Source of the DNA: Lachnospiraceae bacterium
Lineage (GTDB): Bacteria; Bacillota_A; Clostridia; Lachnospirales; Lachnospiraceae
Assembly: GCA_017634255.1 (NCBI GenBank)
Contig: JAGBNT010000086.1
Coordinates: forward strand, 1 to 19,822
Length of the DNA stretch: 19,822 bases
Reading direction: 5' to 3'
The stretch's first letter is position 1, and the number at the start of each line of letters is the position of its first letter. Under the pieces are notes generated by a model. It worked only from the letters and a program-made list of their open reading frames with translations. It made no database searches and was not told the origin of the DNA. A program made the translations under genes and the position numbers. This document shows, in pieces, positions 8,112 through 19,822 of this stretch.

Positions 8112-8132
8112 GGATACGGGGGCTTTTGATTT
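8095..8132 (+). terminator. Terminator-like hairpin after the 78-aa gene
   Basis: Arms 8095-8105 and 8113-8123 pair over 11 bp (GCCCTCGTGTC with two G-U wobbles) around a 7-nt loop, followed by TTTTGATTT. It is a plausible rho-independent terminator for the 78-aa gene even though it overlaps the next promoter. Confidence 0.6.
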
Positions 8133-8135
8133 ACA

Positions 8136-9041
8136 ATGATAAGAAAAGCTTTTGCCAGAGCACTAACCTGCATGGCGCTGACAATATGCATAATCGCAGC
8201 TTCTCCGGGCAGCGTGCGCGCCTCCTTTTCAATAGGCGCCCTAAGGGGCAGCGAGAAGTTTGACGAGACCATCAGGGAGGACAGCCCATGGTTTTTCGAG
8301 CATGGAGAATTTTCCATGCAGGGAATAAATCAGTTCGGCTATACAGGAACCTGCGGAGAAGCAGCTCTGGCAAACGCCATGAACCATATTTTTTCAACCT
8401 CCTATTATACGGAAAATATGCTCGTTAAGATGGCTGTGGATCACAAGCTGTGCACCACCGAAAGTGATATCAAGGAAAATCTGGGGGGAATGAGCCCCGA
8501 ACAGATGATGTATCTTATCACCTTTCTAAATAACGTTGCCGGTACCGACATCCTGGAATATTCCATATCCATGGACCACATTGCAGAAAATGTATTTAAG
8601 CAGCCCGAATATTCGATGGGCGGCGTCTATGTCTGCGACAACTCCATAGAGCTAAAGGAGGACGATGTCGCCGGAGTGGATGCGGTCATGATGGTGACAA
8701 AGGGCGTGCCGGATGTGGAGGCGATGGCAGAGGATATCGATAACGGCTACGTCTATGTGGAATGTGTGGACAGCAATATCCTGTGGGATTTCGACCGGAC
8801 GATAGTGGAGGCTGTGGGTATGAAGTATATAGCCTCAAATCACTGGATAGCCGTTACGAATACCATCCGGGATAAACAGGGGAAATTGCTGGGCTTCTAT
8901 GTCGTAGATTCCGGAACAGGCACAAAGACAGTTCTAAAGGATAAAATGCACACCATGATATTCGGGCTCCCCAATGAGCCCATAACGGATGCGGCATGCA
9001 TAAGGATAAACCCGGTGGAGAGCGGAAAGGCAGGGCGCTAA
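8136..9041 (+). CDS. Secreted papain-like (C39-like) cysteine peptidase
   Basis: 301 aa. Residues 1-29 form a signal peptide (MIRKAFAR basic start, hydrophobic core, cleavage near VRA-S). A papain-fold triad is visible: Gln66 (oxyanion hole) and Cys73 in QFGYTGTCGEAALANAM, His236 in SNHWIAVTN and Asp258 in FYVVDSG, in the order and spacing of C39-like peptidases. There is no ABC exporter or membrane domain, so it is a free secreted enzyme rather than a bacteriocin-processing transporter. Substrate is unknown; an envelope or extracellular protein, or a self-standing toxin-like hydrolase, are all possible. The start codon lacks a clear Shine-Dalgarno (GGGGG at 8118-8122 is 13 nt away); the alternative Met13 is no better and would spoil the signal peptide. 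It is transcribed from its own promoter. Confidence 0.75.
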   Translation: MIRKAFARALTCMALTICIIAASPGSVRASFSIGALRGSEKFDETIREDSPWFFEHGEFSMQGINQFGYTGTCGEAALANAMNHIFSTSYYTENMLVKMAVDHKLCTTESDIKENLGGMSPEQMMYLITFLNNVAGTDILEYSISMDHIAENVFKQPEYSMGGVYVCDNSIELKEDDVAGVDAVMMVTKGVPDVEAMAEDIDNGYVYVECVDSNILWDFDRTIVEAVGMKYIASNHWIAVTNTIRDKQGKLLGFYVVDSGTGTKTVLKDKMHTMIFGLPNEPITDAACIRINPVESGKAGR

Positions 9042-9130
9042 ATGCTACGCTCAGGATGCGCACCCGCGCGATAGAAATATGCTGTATAAAGGCAGCCGCG
9101 CCCGGCGAGAGAATGTAGCAAGCGGCATTT

Positions 9131-10540
9131 TTACTTAACCAGCTTATACAGTGAAAAGGAGTATTGGTCGAAGCTCATGTTGGAGACAAACTCGCTTTTG
9201 TAGCCGTATTTTGAAGCCTCTTTAAGATAATTCTCATAGCCCGGCACGGCAAAATACCATAATTGACCGCTACATTCGCCGGCAGTTTCCCAGTCGTATT
9301 TTTTAAGAGAGGGATAGTAATACCGCATACAAAGCTCTATCTGGTATTTGTCCTCGTATATAACGTAGCCGTCCCCGGCCTTAAGGTTTTCATCCATATA
9401 GGCTGTCATTGTATTTACTCCCGGGGCGTACTCCGCGGCAAACTCCTGGGTATAGACCGATATGAGGGAGGCGGACAGGATAAGGGTGAATATCCCGGGG
9501 CAGAAAGCCGGGAACAGACCCTCGCTGTCTCCGGCAGCCATCGCTGCCCCAAGCCATAAAAGCCCAAGAGACGGGATGAGATAACGGGCTGTAAAAACGC
9601 TTCCTCCGCTAATGAATGAGCAGACATAGCCGAAGCATAAGGTTAGATAGGGTATTGTGATCAGCAGGGCAGGAACCGCAAACCGTATGCTTTTAAAGGA
9701 GCTGATGACGGCAAAAATAAACAGGATGAGTACGGCAGCCATCAGCAGCAGCGATACGGGGGTTATATTTGTCACATAGGGAAAGCGCAGGTCTGAAAGG
9801 AGCGACCGCAGGCTCAGAGCCTCCATGGAAAAATATCCGCTGGCACGCCCCAGCTGGTATACGGTAAGGACGAGCATCGGAAGATACAGGAGAAAAAAGA
9901 CACCCAAAGCCGTAAAAAAGGTCCTTAAACGCAGCTTCTTATCGCCGGTAAGCCGGAGGGCAGCCAAAAGAAGCATGAGCCAGAGAAAAGCGCAGGGTAT
10001 CAGGGCATACTGGTGGGTATAGCCTGCCAGTACCGAGAAGAGCACAAAACCGGCATGGGCTTTTTTAACATGCTCTGCCTCCGATGTAAGTATTTCGAGG
10101 GCAAAGACCCCTGCAGAGGTTGTAAAGAAAAGCCCCCAGCTGTAAGGACGTATCTCCACTCCGTAATGCAGGAGATGGGGGGCACAGATGATGCAGACAG
10201 TGAACAGCGCAGCCGCCCTGTCCCCGCATAGCCTTGCTATATACCGGGGGCTGAGCCATAGCATCAAAAGGAGCATCGGAAGCGCCGAGGATAGCTTCAT
10301 GATATACGGGCTGTACCCGAAAACGCGGGTCAAGACCCAGGTAAATACATTATAGAGGGGCGGAAGGGTGTCGGAAAAGGTCTGCCGGAGCATCTGTACG
10401 AAGCTGCTGCGGATCATGCAGGCAGTAAATGCTTCGTCAACCCACAGGTTATTATTGAATATCAAAGACAGGTATATGGCGCTGCCTATAAGTCCCAATG
10501 CATATATACCCGTTTTTGTCGAAAAAACACTTCCCTTCAT
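9131..10540 (-). CDS. PMT/GT39-like GT-C membrane glycosyltransferase
   Basis: 469 aa from the ATG at 10540 on the minus strand (a TTG seven codons upstream at 10561 is the alternative; neither has a Shine-Dalgarno). About ten to twelve hydrophobic segments span residues 10-365. The first external loop carries LWVDEAFT, whose Asp35-Glu36 pair is the catalytic acidic motif of GT-C enzymes of the PMT_2/ArnT type, followed by the conserved TLPPLYNVF. Such enzymes move a sugar from a polyprenyl-phosphate donor to an extracytoplasmic acceptor. The last about 100 residues are soluble (DENLKAGDGYVIYEDKY onward) and probably extracytoplasmic. The gene stands alone on its strand, convergent with the cysteine peptidase gene and divergent from the WecG-like gene. 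Acceptor unknown; wall polymer or surface protein are candidates. Confidence 0.8.
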   Translation of the reverse strand: MKGSVFSTKTGIYALGLIGSAIYLSLIFNNNLWVDEAFTACMIRSSFVQMLRQTFSDTLPPLYNVFTWVLTRVFGYSPYIMKLSSALPMLLLMLWLSPRYIARLCGDRAAALFTVCIICAPHLLHYGVEIRPYSWGLFFTTSAGVFALEILTSEAEHVKKAHAGFVLFSVLAGYTHQYALIPCAFLWLMLLLAALRLTGDKKLRLRTFFTALGVFFLLYLPMLVLTVYQLGRASGYFSMEALSLRSLLSDLRFPYVTNITPVSLLLMAAVLILFIFAVISSFKSIRFAVPALLITIPYLTLCFGYVCSFISGGSVFTARYLIPSLGLLWLGAAMAAGDSEGLFPAFCPGIFTLILSASLISVYTQEFAAEYAPGVNTMTAYMDENLKAGDGYVIYEDKYQIELCMRYYYPSLKKYDWETAGECSGQLWYFAVPGYENYLKEASKYGYKSEFVSNMSFDQYSFSLYKLVK

Positions 10541-16676: not shown

Positions 16677-16714
16677 GGAGCTGCTGCATAATAAACGTGT
16701 TTATGAACAGCTCC
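16677..16714 (+). other. Intercistronic hairpin between the S41 and YfhO genes
   Basis: GGAGCTG (16677-16683) directly after the S41 stop pairs perfectly with CAGCTCC (16708-16714). The 24-nt loop holds a further weak inverted repeat, ATAAAC-GT-GTTTAT. No T-run follows, so it is not a normal terminator; it may affect mRNA stability or yfhO translation. Confidence 0.5.
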
Positions 16715-16731
16715 CAACCGGATTTTCCCAT

Positions 16732-19305
16732 ATGAAAGAAAAGAACCTGGTAAATAGAAAACTCTTATATCCTGCGGCCTTTTTGCTTCCGGTGGTCATG
16801 CTCGGTATCGTCTTCCTCCTTCGCGGCATATATCCCTTCGGAGACAGCACCGTTATGACCGGGGATGCGCAGTACCAGTTTGTGGATTATCTTTCATATC
16901 TTAAATCCATCGTATTCGGCAATAACGATTTTAATTATTCCTTCAGTAAAAATCTGGGCGGAAACATGAGGGGTTTTTCGGCTTACTACTACATGAGCCT
17001 GCTCAATTACCTGACCCTCCCCTTTCCCTCAGAGCTAATACCCGCCGCCCAGGGGCTTGTGCTCGCGGTGACGGTGGGGCTGTGCTCCCTTGATTTTTGC
17101 ATAATGATAAGCAGTCTTCACGGGGCGCGGTATTCAAACCTTATCTTTTCCATCGCCTATGCCTTTATGGGCTTTATAGCCGTTTATTTCCAGCTTTCCA
17201 TGTATTTTACCAATCTGGCGGTATTTCCGCTGATAATACTGGGCTTGATCAGGCTTACCGAGGACAGGAGCCATTTTCTGCTCTATATCGTTACGCTGTT
17301 TATAGCGGTTCTTTGCAATTACTATTCCGGCTTTATGATATGTATTTTTTGCCTGCTGTTTTTTATTTACAGGATCATGCTGAAAGCCGGGAGCCTGCTG
17401 GAACTGAAAACCTACGCCGGAACCGCTTTGGTGTTTGCGCTAAGCTCCTGCCTGGCTGCGGCGCTGTCCGCCTTTAACCTTGTTCCGGCGCTTCTTTCCC
17501 TGGAGGGGGAAAAGAATGTCATTTCTCTCGGACTATATAGAACCTTCCCTCTAAGCCGGTTTTTCTCCGGACTTTACACAGCCTCCTTTAAGGGCAATCT
17601 AAGTACCGGCATGCCGAATATATATTGCGGGGGGCTGATGGTATTCCTGCTCTTTAGGTATTTTATCAACAGCAGGATATCGAAAAAGGAGAGGATATTA
17701 TCAGGTTTATTTATAGCCTTTCTTATTATAAATATGTATTTTAATCCCCTCAACGTTTTATGGCACGGATTTAACCAGCCCATAGGCTTTCCGTTCAGGT
17801 ACGCCTACATGCTCTCCTTCCTGTTCATATATCTTTCGTACAGGGGCTTCATAGAGCCTAATGAGCGTAAAACCCGGGCTGAGGTCGTCTTTTTCCTCAT
17901 CTTTATCCTTTACTCCGCCTTCCTCCTGCTGGCAGGGAGCGAGACGGTGGGCTCAAAGGAAGTACTTATAACAGCTTCGATCCTGGGGATGGTTCTCCTG
18001 ATCGATCAAAATAAGAGGCTTCCCGTGCAGTGGGTTATAACGGCGCTCCTTGTCCTAACCGCCGCAGAGCTTTCCTATAACTTTTACTCTGCGATGGGGC
18101 AGGTGGAGCTCGCCTCTTTGTCTGAATATAGGGAATATATCCGCGATATGAATGCCACGATAGAAGAGATAAAGGAGGACAGGGACTTTTACCGCATGGA
18201 GAAGGATGTCAGGAGAACGCATAATGATGCAATGCAGTTTGATTATGCGGGTCTGTCCCATTTCAGCTCCAGTGAAAAGAAGGACAAGATGATCTTTCTG
18301 GCAAAGCTCGGACTCAGAAATAACGGGAACTGGGCATTTTACCCGGAGCCCTCCACAATGCTCTTAGACAGCCTTTTGGGGCTAAAGCACTTTGTTTCTC
18401 AGTTCCATACGACTCCGAATAATTATACAAAGATCATAGAGGATAAATTATACAAGGGCTACACCAATGAGGCCGCCCTGCCGCTGATGTTTGCCGGAAG
18501 CAGCAGGGTGACGGAAATGGATTACAGAGATTTTGGCAGCGATCCCTTTGAATTTCAGGAGGCAATAGCGGATGCCCTTGCCGGAAAGGAGACCGGTATA
18601 TTCAGAAAGGCCCAGGTGCTTTCAGTTAAAGCGGTAAATCTCAAGGAAAGTGCCGAAGAAGGCTTCACTCACTATGAAAGGCAGAACCCGCAGGAGGACG
18701 CCTATCTTTGCTATTCCGTGTTTGTTGAGGAGGTCATGGATGAGCCGGAGCATCCCGAGTGCCTGTTTGCCTATTTCGATGCCCCGTCGGTTCAGGATGT
18801 GACGCTTTACAGGTACGATACGGATATGGGTCCGTATTTCGGCATATACAGGTGGAATATCGTAAATTTTGAGACCCACACTGAGGGCGATACATATGAG
18901 GTAAAGCTTCGCCCCAATGGTATGGGCATGGATATAGCCAACGCATATTTTTATTATGAGGACAGAAACGCAGTCAGGGCTTTCAGCGCGGACATAACCG
19001 CAGCCCCGTCCAGGCTGGAAAAGATGACCAGCTCGCATTTAAAGGGGGAAATATCCATAGACAGCGAGGATAAATATGCAGTGCTGTCCATCCCCTATGA
19101 TAAAGGCTGGAATGTCCTCGTAGACGGAAAGAGGGCTGAGACGGTCCCGGCAGCGGGGATGCTGCTGTCCTTTGCACCCGGCACAGGGGAGCATGAAATA
19201 GATATGCGCTATATCCCTAAGGGAATGTATGCAGGAAATATACTGTCAATAGTCGCATTTTTGATTTTATGCTTTTTGGCGGTAAAAAGAAAATTTAGAA
19301 AATAG
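16732..19305 (+). CDS. YfhO-family GT-C membrane glycosyltransferase
   Basis: 857 aa from ATG 16732; the frame is open for 39 codons upstream but overlaps the S41 gene and the hairpin, and the MKEKNLVNRK start gives the usual cytoplasmic head before helix 1. No clear Shine-Dalgarno precedes it. About twelve to fourteen hydrophobic segments span residues 12-470, then a large extracytoplasmic region (about 475-825) and a final helix near 833-851 with a basic KRKFRK tail. The first outer loop has GDSTVMTGDAQYQFVDYLSY with Asp45, a conserved YfhO pattern and probable catalytic residue. In Bacillus and Listeria YfhO-type proteins glycosylate teichoic acids with lipid-linked sugars. Here it is the last gene of the envelope cluster; the exact acceptor is not known. 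Confidence 0.85.
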   Translation: MKEKNLVNRKLLYPAAFLLPVVMLGIVFLLRGIYPFGDSTVMTGDAQYQFVDYLSYLKSIVFGNNDFNYSFSKNLGGNMRGFSAYYYMSLLNYLTLPFPSELIPAAQGLVLAVTVGLCSLDFCIMISSLHGARYSNLIFSIAYAFMGFIAVYFQLSMYFTNLAVFPLIILGLIRLTEDRSHFLLYIVTLFIAVLCNYYSGFMICIFCLLFFIYRIMLKAGSLLELKTYAGTALVFALSSCLAAALSAFNLVPALLSLEGEKNVISLGLYRTFPLSRFFSGLYTASFKGNLSTGMPNIYCGGLMVFLLFRYFINSRISKKERILSGLFIAFLIINMYFNPLNVLWHGFNQPIGFPFRYAYMLSFLFIYLSYRGFIEPNERKTRAEVVFFLIFILYSAFLLLAGSETVGSKEVLITASILGMVLLIDQNKRLPVQWVITALLVLTAAELSYNFYSAMGQVELASLSEYREYIRDMNATIEEIKEDRDFYRMEKDVRRTHNDAMQFDYAGLSHFSSSEKKDKMIFLAKLGLRNNGNWAFYPEPSTMLLDSLLGLKHFVSQFHTTPNNYTKIIEDKLYKGYTNEAALPLMFAGSSRVTEMDYRDFGSDPFEFQEAIADALAGKETGIFRKAQVLSVKAVNLKESAEEGFTHYERQNPQEDAYLCYSVFVEEVMDEPEHPECLFAYFDAPSVQDVTLYRYDTDMGPYFGIYRWNIVNFETHTEGDTYEVKLRPNGMGMDIANAYFYYEDRNAVRAFSADITAAPSRLEKMTSSHLKGEISIDSEDKYAVLSIPYDKGWNVLVDGKRAETVPAAGMLLSFAPGTGEHEIDMRYIPKGMYAGNILSIVAFLILCFLAVKRKFRK

Positions 19306-19399
19306 GTGCCGTAAACACAGCATCTTGTGGGTGAAGATGATGACAGACCACAACTTGTTCCGGGCATGAAAAAAACATAAATTTTTCTTGAAAAAGTTG

Positions 19400-19431
19400 T
19401 TGACAAGGGGCAATAGCGATGTTAATATAAT
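19400..19431 (+). promoter_or_regulatory. Promoter with AT-rich upstream region before the structured RNA
   Basis: TTGACA at 19400-19405 with downstream TAATAT (19423-19428, 17-bp spacer) or TATAAT (19426-19431, 20-bp spacer). An A/T-rich stretch (19368-19399) could act as an UP element, as in rRNA promoters. The strand between 19306 and 19399 also has a 6-bp hairpin CATCTT/AAGATG (19321-19339), not followed by T residues, and no gene. Confidence 0.65.
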
Positions 19432-19822
19432 CAACGCGCCGCAAAAAGAGATTTCTTGAGGCGCGGCAAAGTAAGCTTTCAAGCGCTCTTGTGAAGAGCG
19501 AAGCGATGAACAGCGAGAAAGCTTGTTAGCAAGATGCGAAGCATCTTGCGGCGAACCATGACAAACAGACAGCAATGCAGCCCTGAAGGTTCCTTATGGG
19601 GGAGATAGAGAGCATCGAAGGATGAAGGACATTGACCCCGAGAGAACAATTCAGAGAAAGACCAAGAGTTATCAAAAAGATAACAACGCGAAGTATAACG
19701 GATAGAATGAAGCGCAGCTTTGTTCTGTTGCCGGAGAGAAACGAAAGGCTCTAAAAGAAGCCTTAAAGATTTAGTTTCATTAAGAAACTTAAATGAATTT
19801 CAAGGATACATGTTTTATACAA
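19432..19822 (+). ncRNA. Hairpin-rich noncoding leader or structured RNA, running off the window
   Basis: About 390 nt with no convincing reading frame but many exact stems: 19435-19440/19460-19465; 19473-19480/19517-19524 enclosing a 7-bp hairpin 19484-19490/19494-19500; a 9-bp hairpin 19529-19537/19541-19549 with GAA loop; 19553-19557/19588-19592; 19668-19673/19679-19684; 19710-19713/19717-19720 extended by 19704-19707/19723-19726; 19745-19750/19759-19764; 19774-19778/19784-19788. It follows a promoter. The strongest guess is the leader of an rRNA operon whose 16S gene begins just past the window edge; other structured RNAs are not excluded. I do not recognise a named family. Confidence 0.5.

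Follow-up and report, generated by a model that had tools for sequence, protein, structure and literature searches.

The window, the 19,822-nt stretch of Lachnospiraceae DNA analysed here (GenBank assembly GCA_017634255.1, contig JAGBNT010000086.1), encodes between 12567 and 19305 an ABC ATPase (FtsE by position), FtsX, an M23 peptidase, an S41 protease and a YfhO-family membrane protein. These genes are followed by a sigma-70 promoter and a hairpin-rich region that extends to the contig end (Table 1). Relatives of the locus were sought with the neighbouring S41 protease, which identified two loci from Lachnospiraceae metagenome-assembled genomes (MAGs), L001 and L002. From 5721 of the window to the end of its own contig, L001 (from a goat rumen MAG) is for the most part collinear with the window, and this collinearity covers the five genes listed above, the promoter and the region that follows it. 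The window also encodes, at 8136-9041, a 301-aa protein with no Pfam match, which displays 81% DNA identity in L001. A stretch of 93 nt at 9040-9132 is found in L001 (2476-2568) immediately ahead of the counterpart of 8130-9041 rather than behind it, reflecting either a small shift in order or a repeat. The L002 contig stops short of the position of the hairpin-rich region, and a search of the L002 genome with this sequence returned no match.

Table 1. Features at the 3′ end of the window.
Feature	Position	Strand	Basis
yfhO-family membrane protein gene	16702-19305	+	Pfam YfhO PF09586, E 3.2e-158; upstream of leader; same neighbour in L001
Sigma-70 promoter	19400-19428	+	TTGACA at 19400, spacer of 17, TAATAT at 19423-19428, TG before the -10
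5′ GC-rich hairpin just after promoter, boxB-like position	19435-19465	+	Arms 85% complementary
Closing stem with 7-bp hairpin	19473-19524	+	Inverted pairs; lineage-specific by sequence comparison, absent from L001
Perfect 9-bp hairpin	19529-19549	+	Inverted pairs; lineage-specific by sequence comparison, single copy in window, absent from L001
Conserved leader block, GAACCATGACAAACAGACAGCAATGCAGCCCTGAAGGTTC	19553-19592	+	boxA-like by position and likeness to a boxA consensus
Possible short helix closing the block, CTGAA (19583-19587)/TTCAG (19650-19654)	19583-19654	+	TTCAG after block in relatives
Distal leader part with further hairpins	19655-19763	+	Homologous to L001; fold
Foreign segment, inverted piece of another genus's 16S leader	19764-19822	-	59/59 to G359:C135; orientation opposite to 16S

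The strong promoter that the original prediction placed ahead of the region is confirmed by its two hexamers, their spacing and the TG before the -10. The same prediction described a region with no ORF, which is correct for the plus strand at a threshold of at least 80 aa but not for the minus strand, where a 102-aa frame occupies 19267-19575; part of this frame (∼19451-19551) is absent from L001. The two most striking hairpins are perfect, comprising 7 bp (19484-19490/19494-19500) and 9 bp (19529-19537/19541-19549), each with a 3-nt loop, and the former is enclosed by an 8-bp closing stem (19473-19480/19517-19524), all exactly as originally proposed. The claim of seven or more exact stem-loops was, however, overstated; seven inverted pairs are present, but two of these (I3 and I7) are long-range and two (I1 and I5) are imperfect, with I5 residing in the foreign tail described below.

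Folding of 19430-19822 (393 nt) yielded -113.9 kcal/mol (z -5.3), a value matched by none of 100 shuffled sequences, while 19433-19763 alone gave a z of -5.7. The leaders, or leader parts, of eight relatives folded in the same way displayed z values of -2.1 to -5.3, showing that strong folding is usual for such leaders. The view that the region contains far more structure than an ordinary leader therefore holds against chance, but not against the 16S leaders of relatives. In the first 45 nt after the promoter a stem was predicted in all 38 folds, window included, although in L010 it consists of only four pairs. The z value of this stem was -2 or lower in 20 of the 38 (window included) and only -1.3 in L001, and its sequence differs among relatives.

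Comparison with L001 separates the conserved from the variable parts of the region. The two sequences are 80% identical over 19344-19450 and 82% identical over 19552-19777 (229 columns), while L001 lacks nearly all of 19451-19551, the stretch that holds both striking hairpins. A search for these hairpins in 48 genomes of the genus, which diverged copies could escape, matched no leader; a single 24-nt match to the 19473-19524 hairpin was found in G335, where the locus (L083) lacks the leader block. The possibility that the hairpins are a repeat element was rejected, as each is present in single copy in the window when up to three mismatches are allowed. Judged by these sequence comparisons, the two perfect hairpins are lineage-specific.

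The identity of the region is revealed by what lies behind the conserved block in related genomes. Loci with at most five errors to the block (19553-19592) were fetched from part of the matching places, and the exclusion of the window and two duplicates left 47. A 16S start was located 131-293 nt downstream of the block, on the same strand, in 16 of the 47, and the contig ended first in the other 31, with no locus falling outside these two groups; two of the 31, L011 and L051, end within the 16S start itself. Every fetched relative with a long enough contig thus carries 16S behind the block, consistent with an rRNA operon leader, the first of the two alternatives originally put forward. In G322 (L081 and L082) Rfam identified 16S, 5S and 23S behind the block, constituting a full operon. 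When one mismatch was allowed in the -35, 38 of the 48 loci that carry the block, counting the window, had a promoter of the window's kind no more than 220 nt ahead of it; the block core lies 34-131 nt after the -10, and the order of promoter, hairpin and block is kept in relatives. In L001 the contig stops 211 nt beyond the shared block, and its terminus, ...TTTTGAGA, may represent the first bases of the 16S gene of L001.

Broader searches show how the leader is distributed. Within the G001 genus, the query 19360-19822 found matches, mostly near 19549-19594, in 29 of 48 genomes and none in the other 19; the matches often occur as several copies per genome and often near contig ends. In a few cases the match is confined to the promoter part; at one of these, G322:C1:504800, the surrounding 7 kb contains no 16S start. 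An even draw across the family, queried with 19550-19822, gave matches in 12 of 299 genomes; in G155 the match is restricted to the tail.

The window leader is therefore homologous to leaders of proven rRNA operons, and the presence of 16S behind the block in relatives, together with the Rfam-confirmed operon in G322, identifies the region as an rRNA operon leader. There is little doubt that ∼19433-19763 of the window constitutes the 5′ leader of a 16S rRNA operon and that the last 59 nt derive, in inverted orientation, from a 16S leader of another Lachnospiraceae genus, a reading for which the homology, the downstream 16S genes of relatives and the inverted tail provide direct support. As the window itself contains no 16S, we infer the gene that this leader would precede. 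The leader is an ordinary rRNA operon leader equipped with lineage-specific hairpins and does not represent a new RNA class.

The conserved block most likely acts as a boxA, as judged from its position and its similarity to a boxA consensus. The block, the CCTTGAAAAACTAACA form carried by the L081 leader and the boxA-looking CTTTGAAAACTGAATA located between 5S and 23S in the L081 operon all resemble the Firmicutes boxA consensus. An automatic search of this 5S-23S spacer for the whole block found no close copy (eight substitutions). Compared with boxA, the Lachnospiraceae block (GACAAACAAACAGCAATGCAACCCTGAA in relatives) is longer, and the extension is nearly invariant here. It is conceivable, though unlikely, that the block exceeds boxA, with the nearly invariant CAGCAATGCA-CCC extension and a possible closing helix forming a lineage-specific element that would bind an additional factor serving antitermination or the early assembly of the 30S subunit.

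The helix in question, CTGAA/TTCAG, may close the block. Counting the window, 29 distinct sequences carry TTCAG downstream of the block; it is missing from L035 and L037, in which 136 and 77 nt, respectively, were available, while L051 displays one compensatory change (CCGAA/TTCGG). In only 5 of 30 distinct sequences was the helix equalled by no more than 10 of 200 shuffles (16 loci were too short and were skipped), and the longest helix in the window, which is not CTGAA/TTCAG, was reached by 112 of 200 shuffles. A MAFFT alignment of 28 rows (A1) comprised 27 of the 29 TTCAG-bearing sequences and L051; L021 and L024 were left out owing to their long loops, and L007 and L036 were trimmed to the contig end. 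The TTCAG-bearing rows were chosen for this motif, 15 loci that lack it being dropped, most with fewer than 80 nt to look in (L035 and L051 are the exceptions). Because A1 misaligns the 3′ arm and its rows were selected for TTCAG, no claim of covariation is made from it. Pairing between leader and trailer was also considered; in L081 the predicted duplex (-23.4 kcal/mol) was equalled by 3 of 200 shuffled trailers, which is suggestive only.

The last 59 nt of the window (19764-19822) do not belong to the leader, and the single transcript of ∼390 nt envisaged as far as 19822 is therefore not sustained. In the genus of G155, 28 of 29 genomes match this tail, the best match, in G359:C135, being identical at all 59 positions. 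A family-wide draw of 397 genomes yielded only three matches, two of which span just 22-28 nt. Wherever a 16S start can be seen (19 of 19 distinct places, from 23 locus rows, four of which repeat the same place), the matching segment falls within the leader and is oriented opposite to 16S. The match begins at 19764, and just before the junction the sequences have hardly anything in common. The L001 alignment runs 14 nt beyond this point, to 19777, in AT-rich sequence, and the junction was therefore placed from the foreign side. As these 59 nt are inverted and foreign, extension of the contig beyond 19822, the check originally suggested for locating 16S, would probably miss the gene.

The tail is most likely a chimeric contig end formed at an rRNA repeat. 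A true genomic rearrangement, in which the leader was cut from its 16S and placed head-to-head with another leader, would fit the clean junction, as the near absence of shared sequence offers no obvious overlap to mislead an assembler. Such an event is nevertheless improbable, since the tail belongs to a different genus, as its distribution within that genus and across the family demonstrates, and occupies the very end of the contig, the position at which assemblies are interrupted by rRNA repeats. Still less credible is a reading of the tail as the trailer, the 3′ arm of a 16S processing stem, and hence a natural reverse complement of the leader. While a trailer is expected to be partly complementary to its own leader, all 19 informative places have the matching segment on the leader side, and a match of 59/59 is both longer and more exact than expected for a stem common to two genera. 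Furthermore, among the loci of the tail's genus, four of which contain masked or unknown stretches, only L073 and L076 show the 16S 3′ end and trailer, and neither has a trailer-side match; the trailer-arm reading was rejected on these two visible trailers only.

The second original alternative, an unnamed large RNA, is unsupported by these data, as the block precedes 16S in relatives. A large stand-alone RNA that has nothing to do with rRNA and would define a new structured class might be argued from the strong fold, the region's own promoter and the lack of an Rfam match, but can be given almost no credence in view of the 16S behind the block wherever contigs reach it (16 of 47, the other 31 being cut off first), the lack of a terminator-like site on the plus strand in 19290-19822, and striking hairpins that are missing from L001 and unmatched in the leaders of the 48 genus genomes. 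The Rfam search that had been recommended was performed and matched no family; Rfam 15 gave no matches across the whole window, and at a loose threshold 19380-19822 returned three matches far below the gathering scores (E 4.4-4.9), so that no family reached its gathering threshold. No tRNA or tmRNA was detected in the window, and the titles and abstract starts among the literature matches listed contained nothing on the leader element of the window.

A model for the operon leader can be proposed from these comparisons. RNA polymerase would start at the 19400 promoter and first synthesize the GC-rich hairpin. The conserved block, most likely boxA, would be transcribed next, binding NusB/NusE and loading the antitermination complex, after which the polymerase would pass through the spacer hairpins and enter the 16S rRNA, the leader presumably being trimmed off later. 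The two showy hairpins would then be lineage-specific spacer elements. The tail, joined at ∼19763/19764, most likely stems from a chimeric read or from misassembly at the repeat through which the true contig would enter 16S.

These results remove a candidate new RNA class. The conserved block, which matched no Rfam 15 family, could help to mark the start of rRNA operons at the broken contig ends of Lachnospiraceae MAGs. Users of the sequence should also be aware that the last 59 bases of the contig are probably foreign.

The operons of the relative G322 (L081:1045-5911 and L082:880-5746) display the order 16S-5S-23S, the same as that reported as common in Lachnospiraceae (PMC2914790); the likeness is one of gene order, not of leader. 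With respect to the leader, the appropriate comparison is with the rrn operons of Escherichia coli, in which, as described in PMC10250234, boxB, boxA and boxC follow the promoter and occur again before 23S, boxA being the part needed for the antitermination complex. The arrangement described here resembles that of the E. coli boxB-boxA-boxC leader in that a promoter is followed by a hairpin, a boxA-like block, variable hairpins and then, in relatives, 16S, and in both systems the sequence is variable outside a short block.
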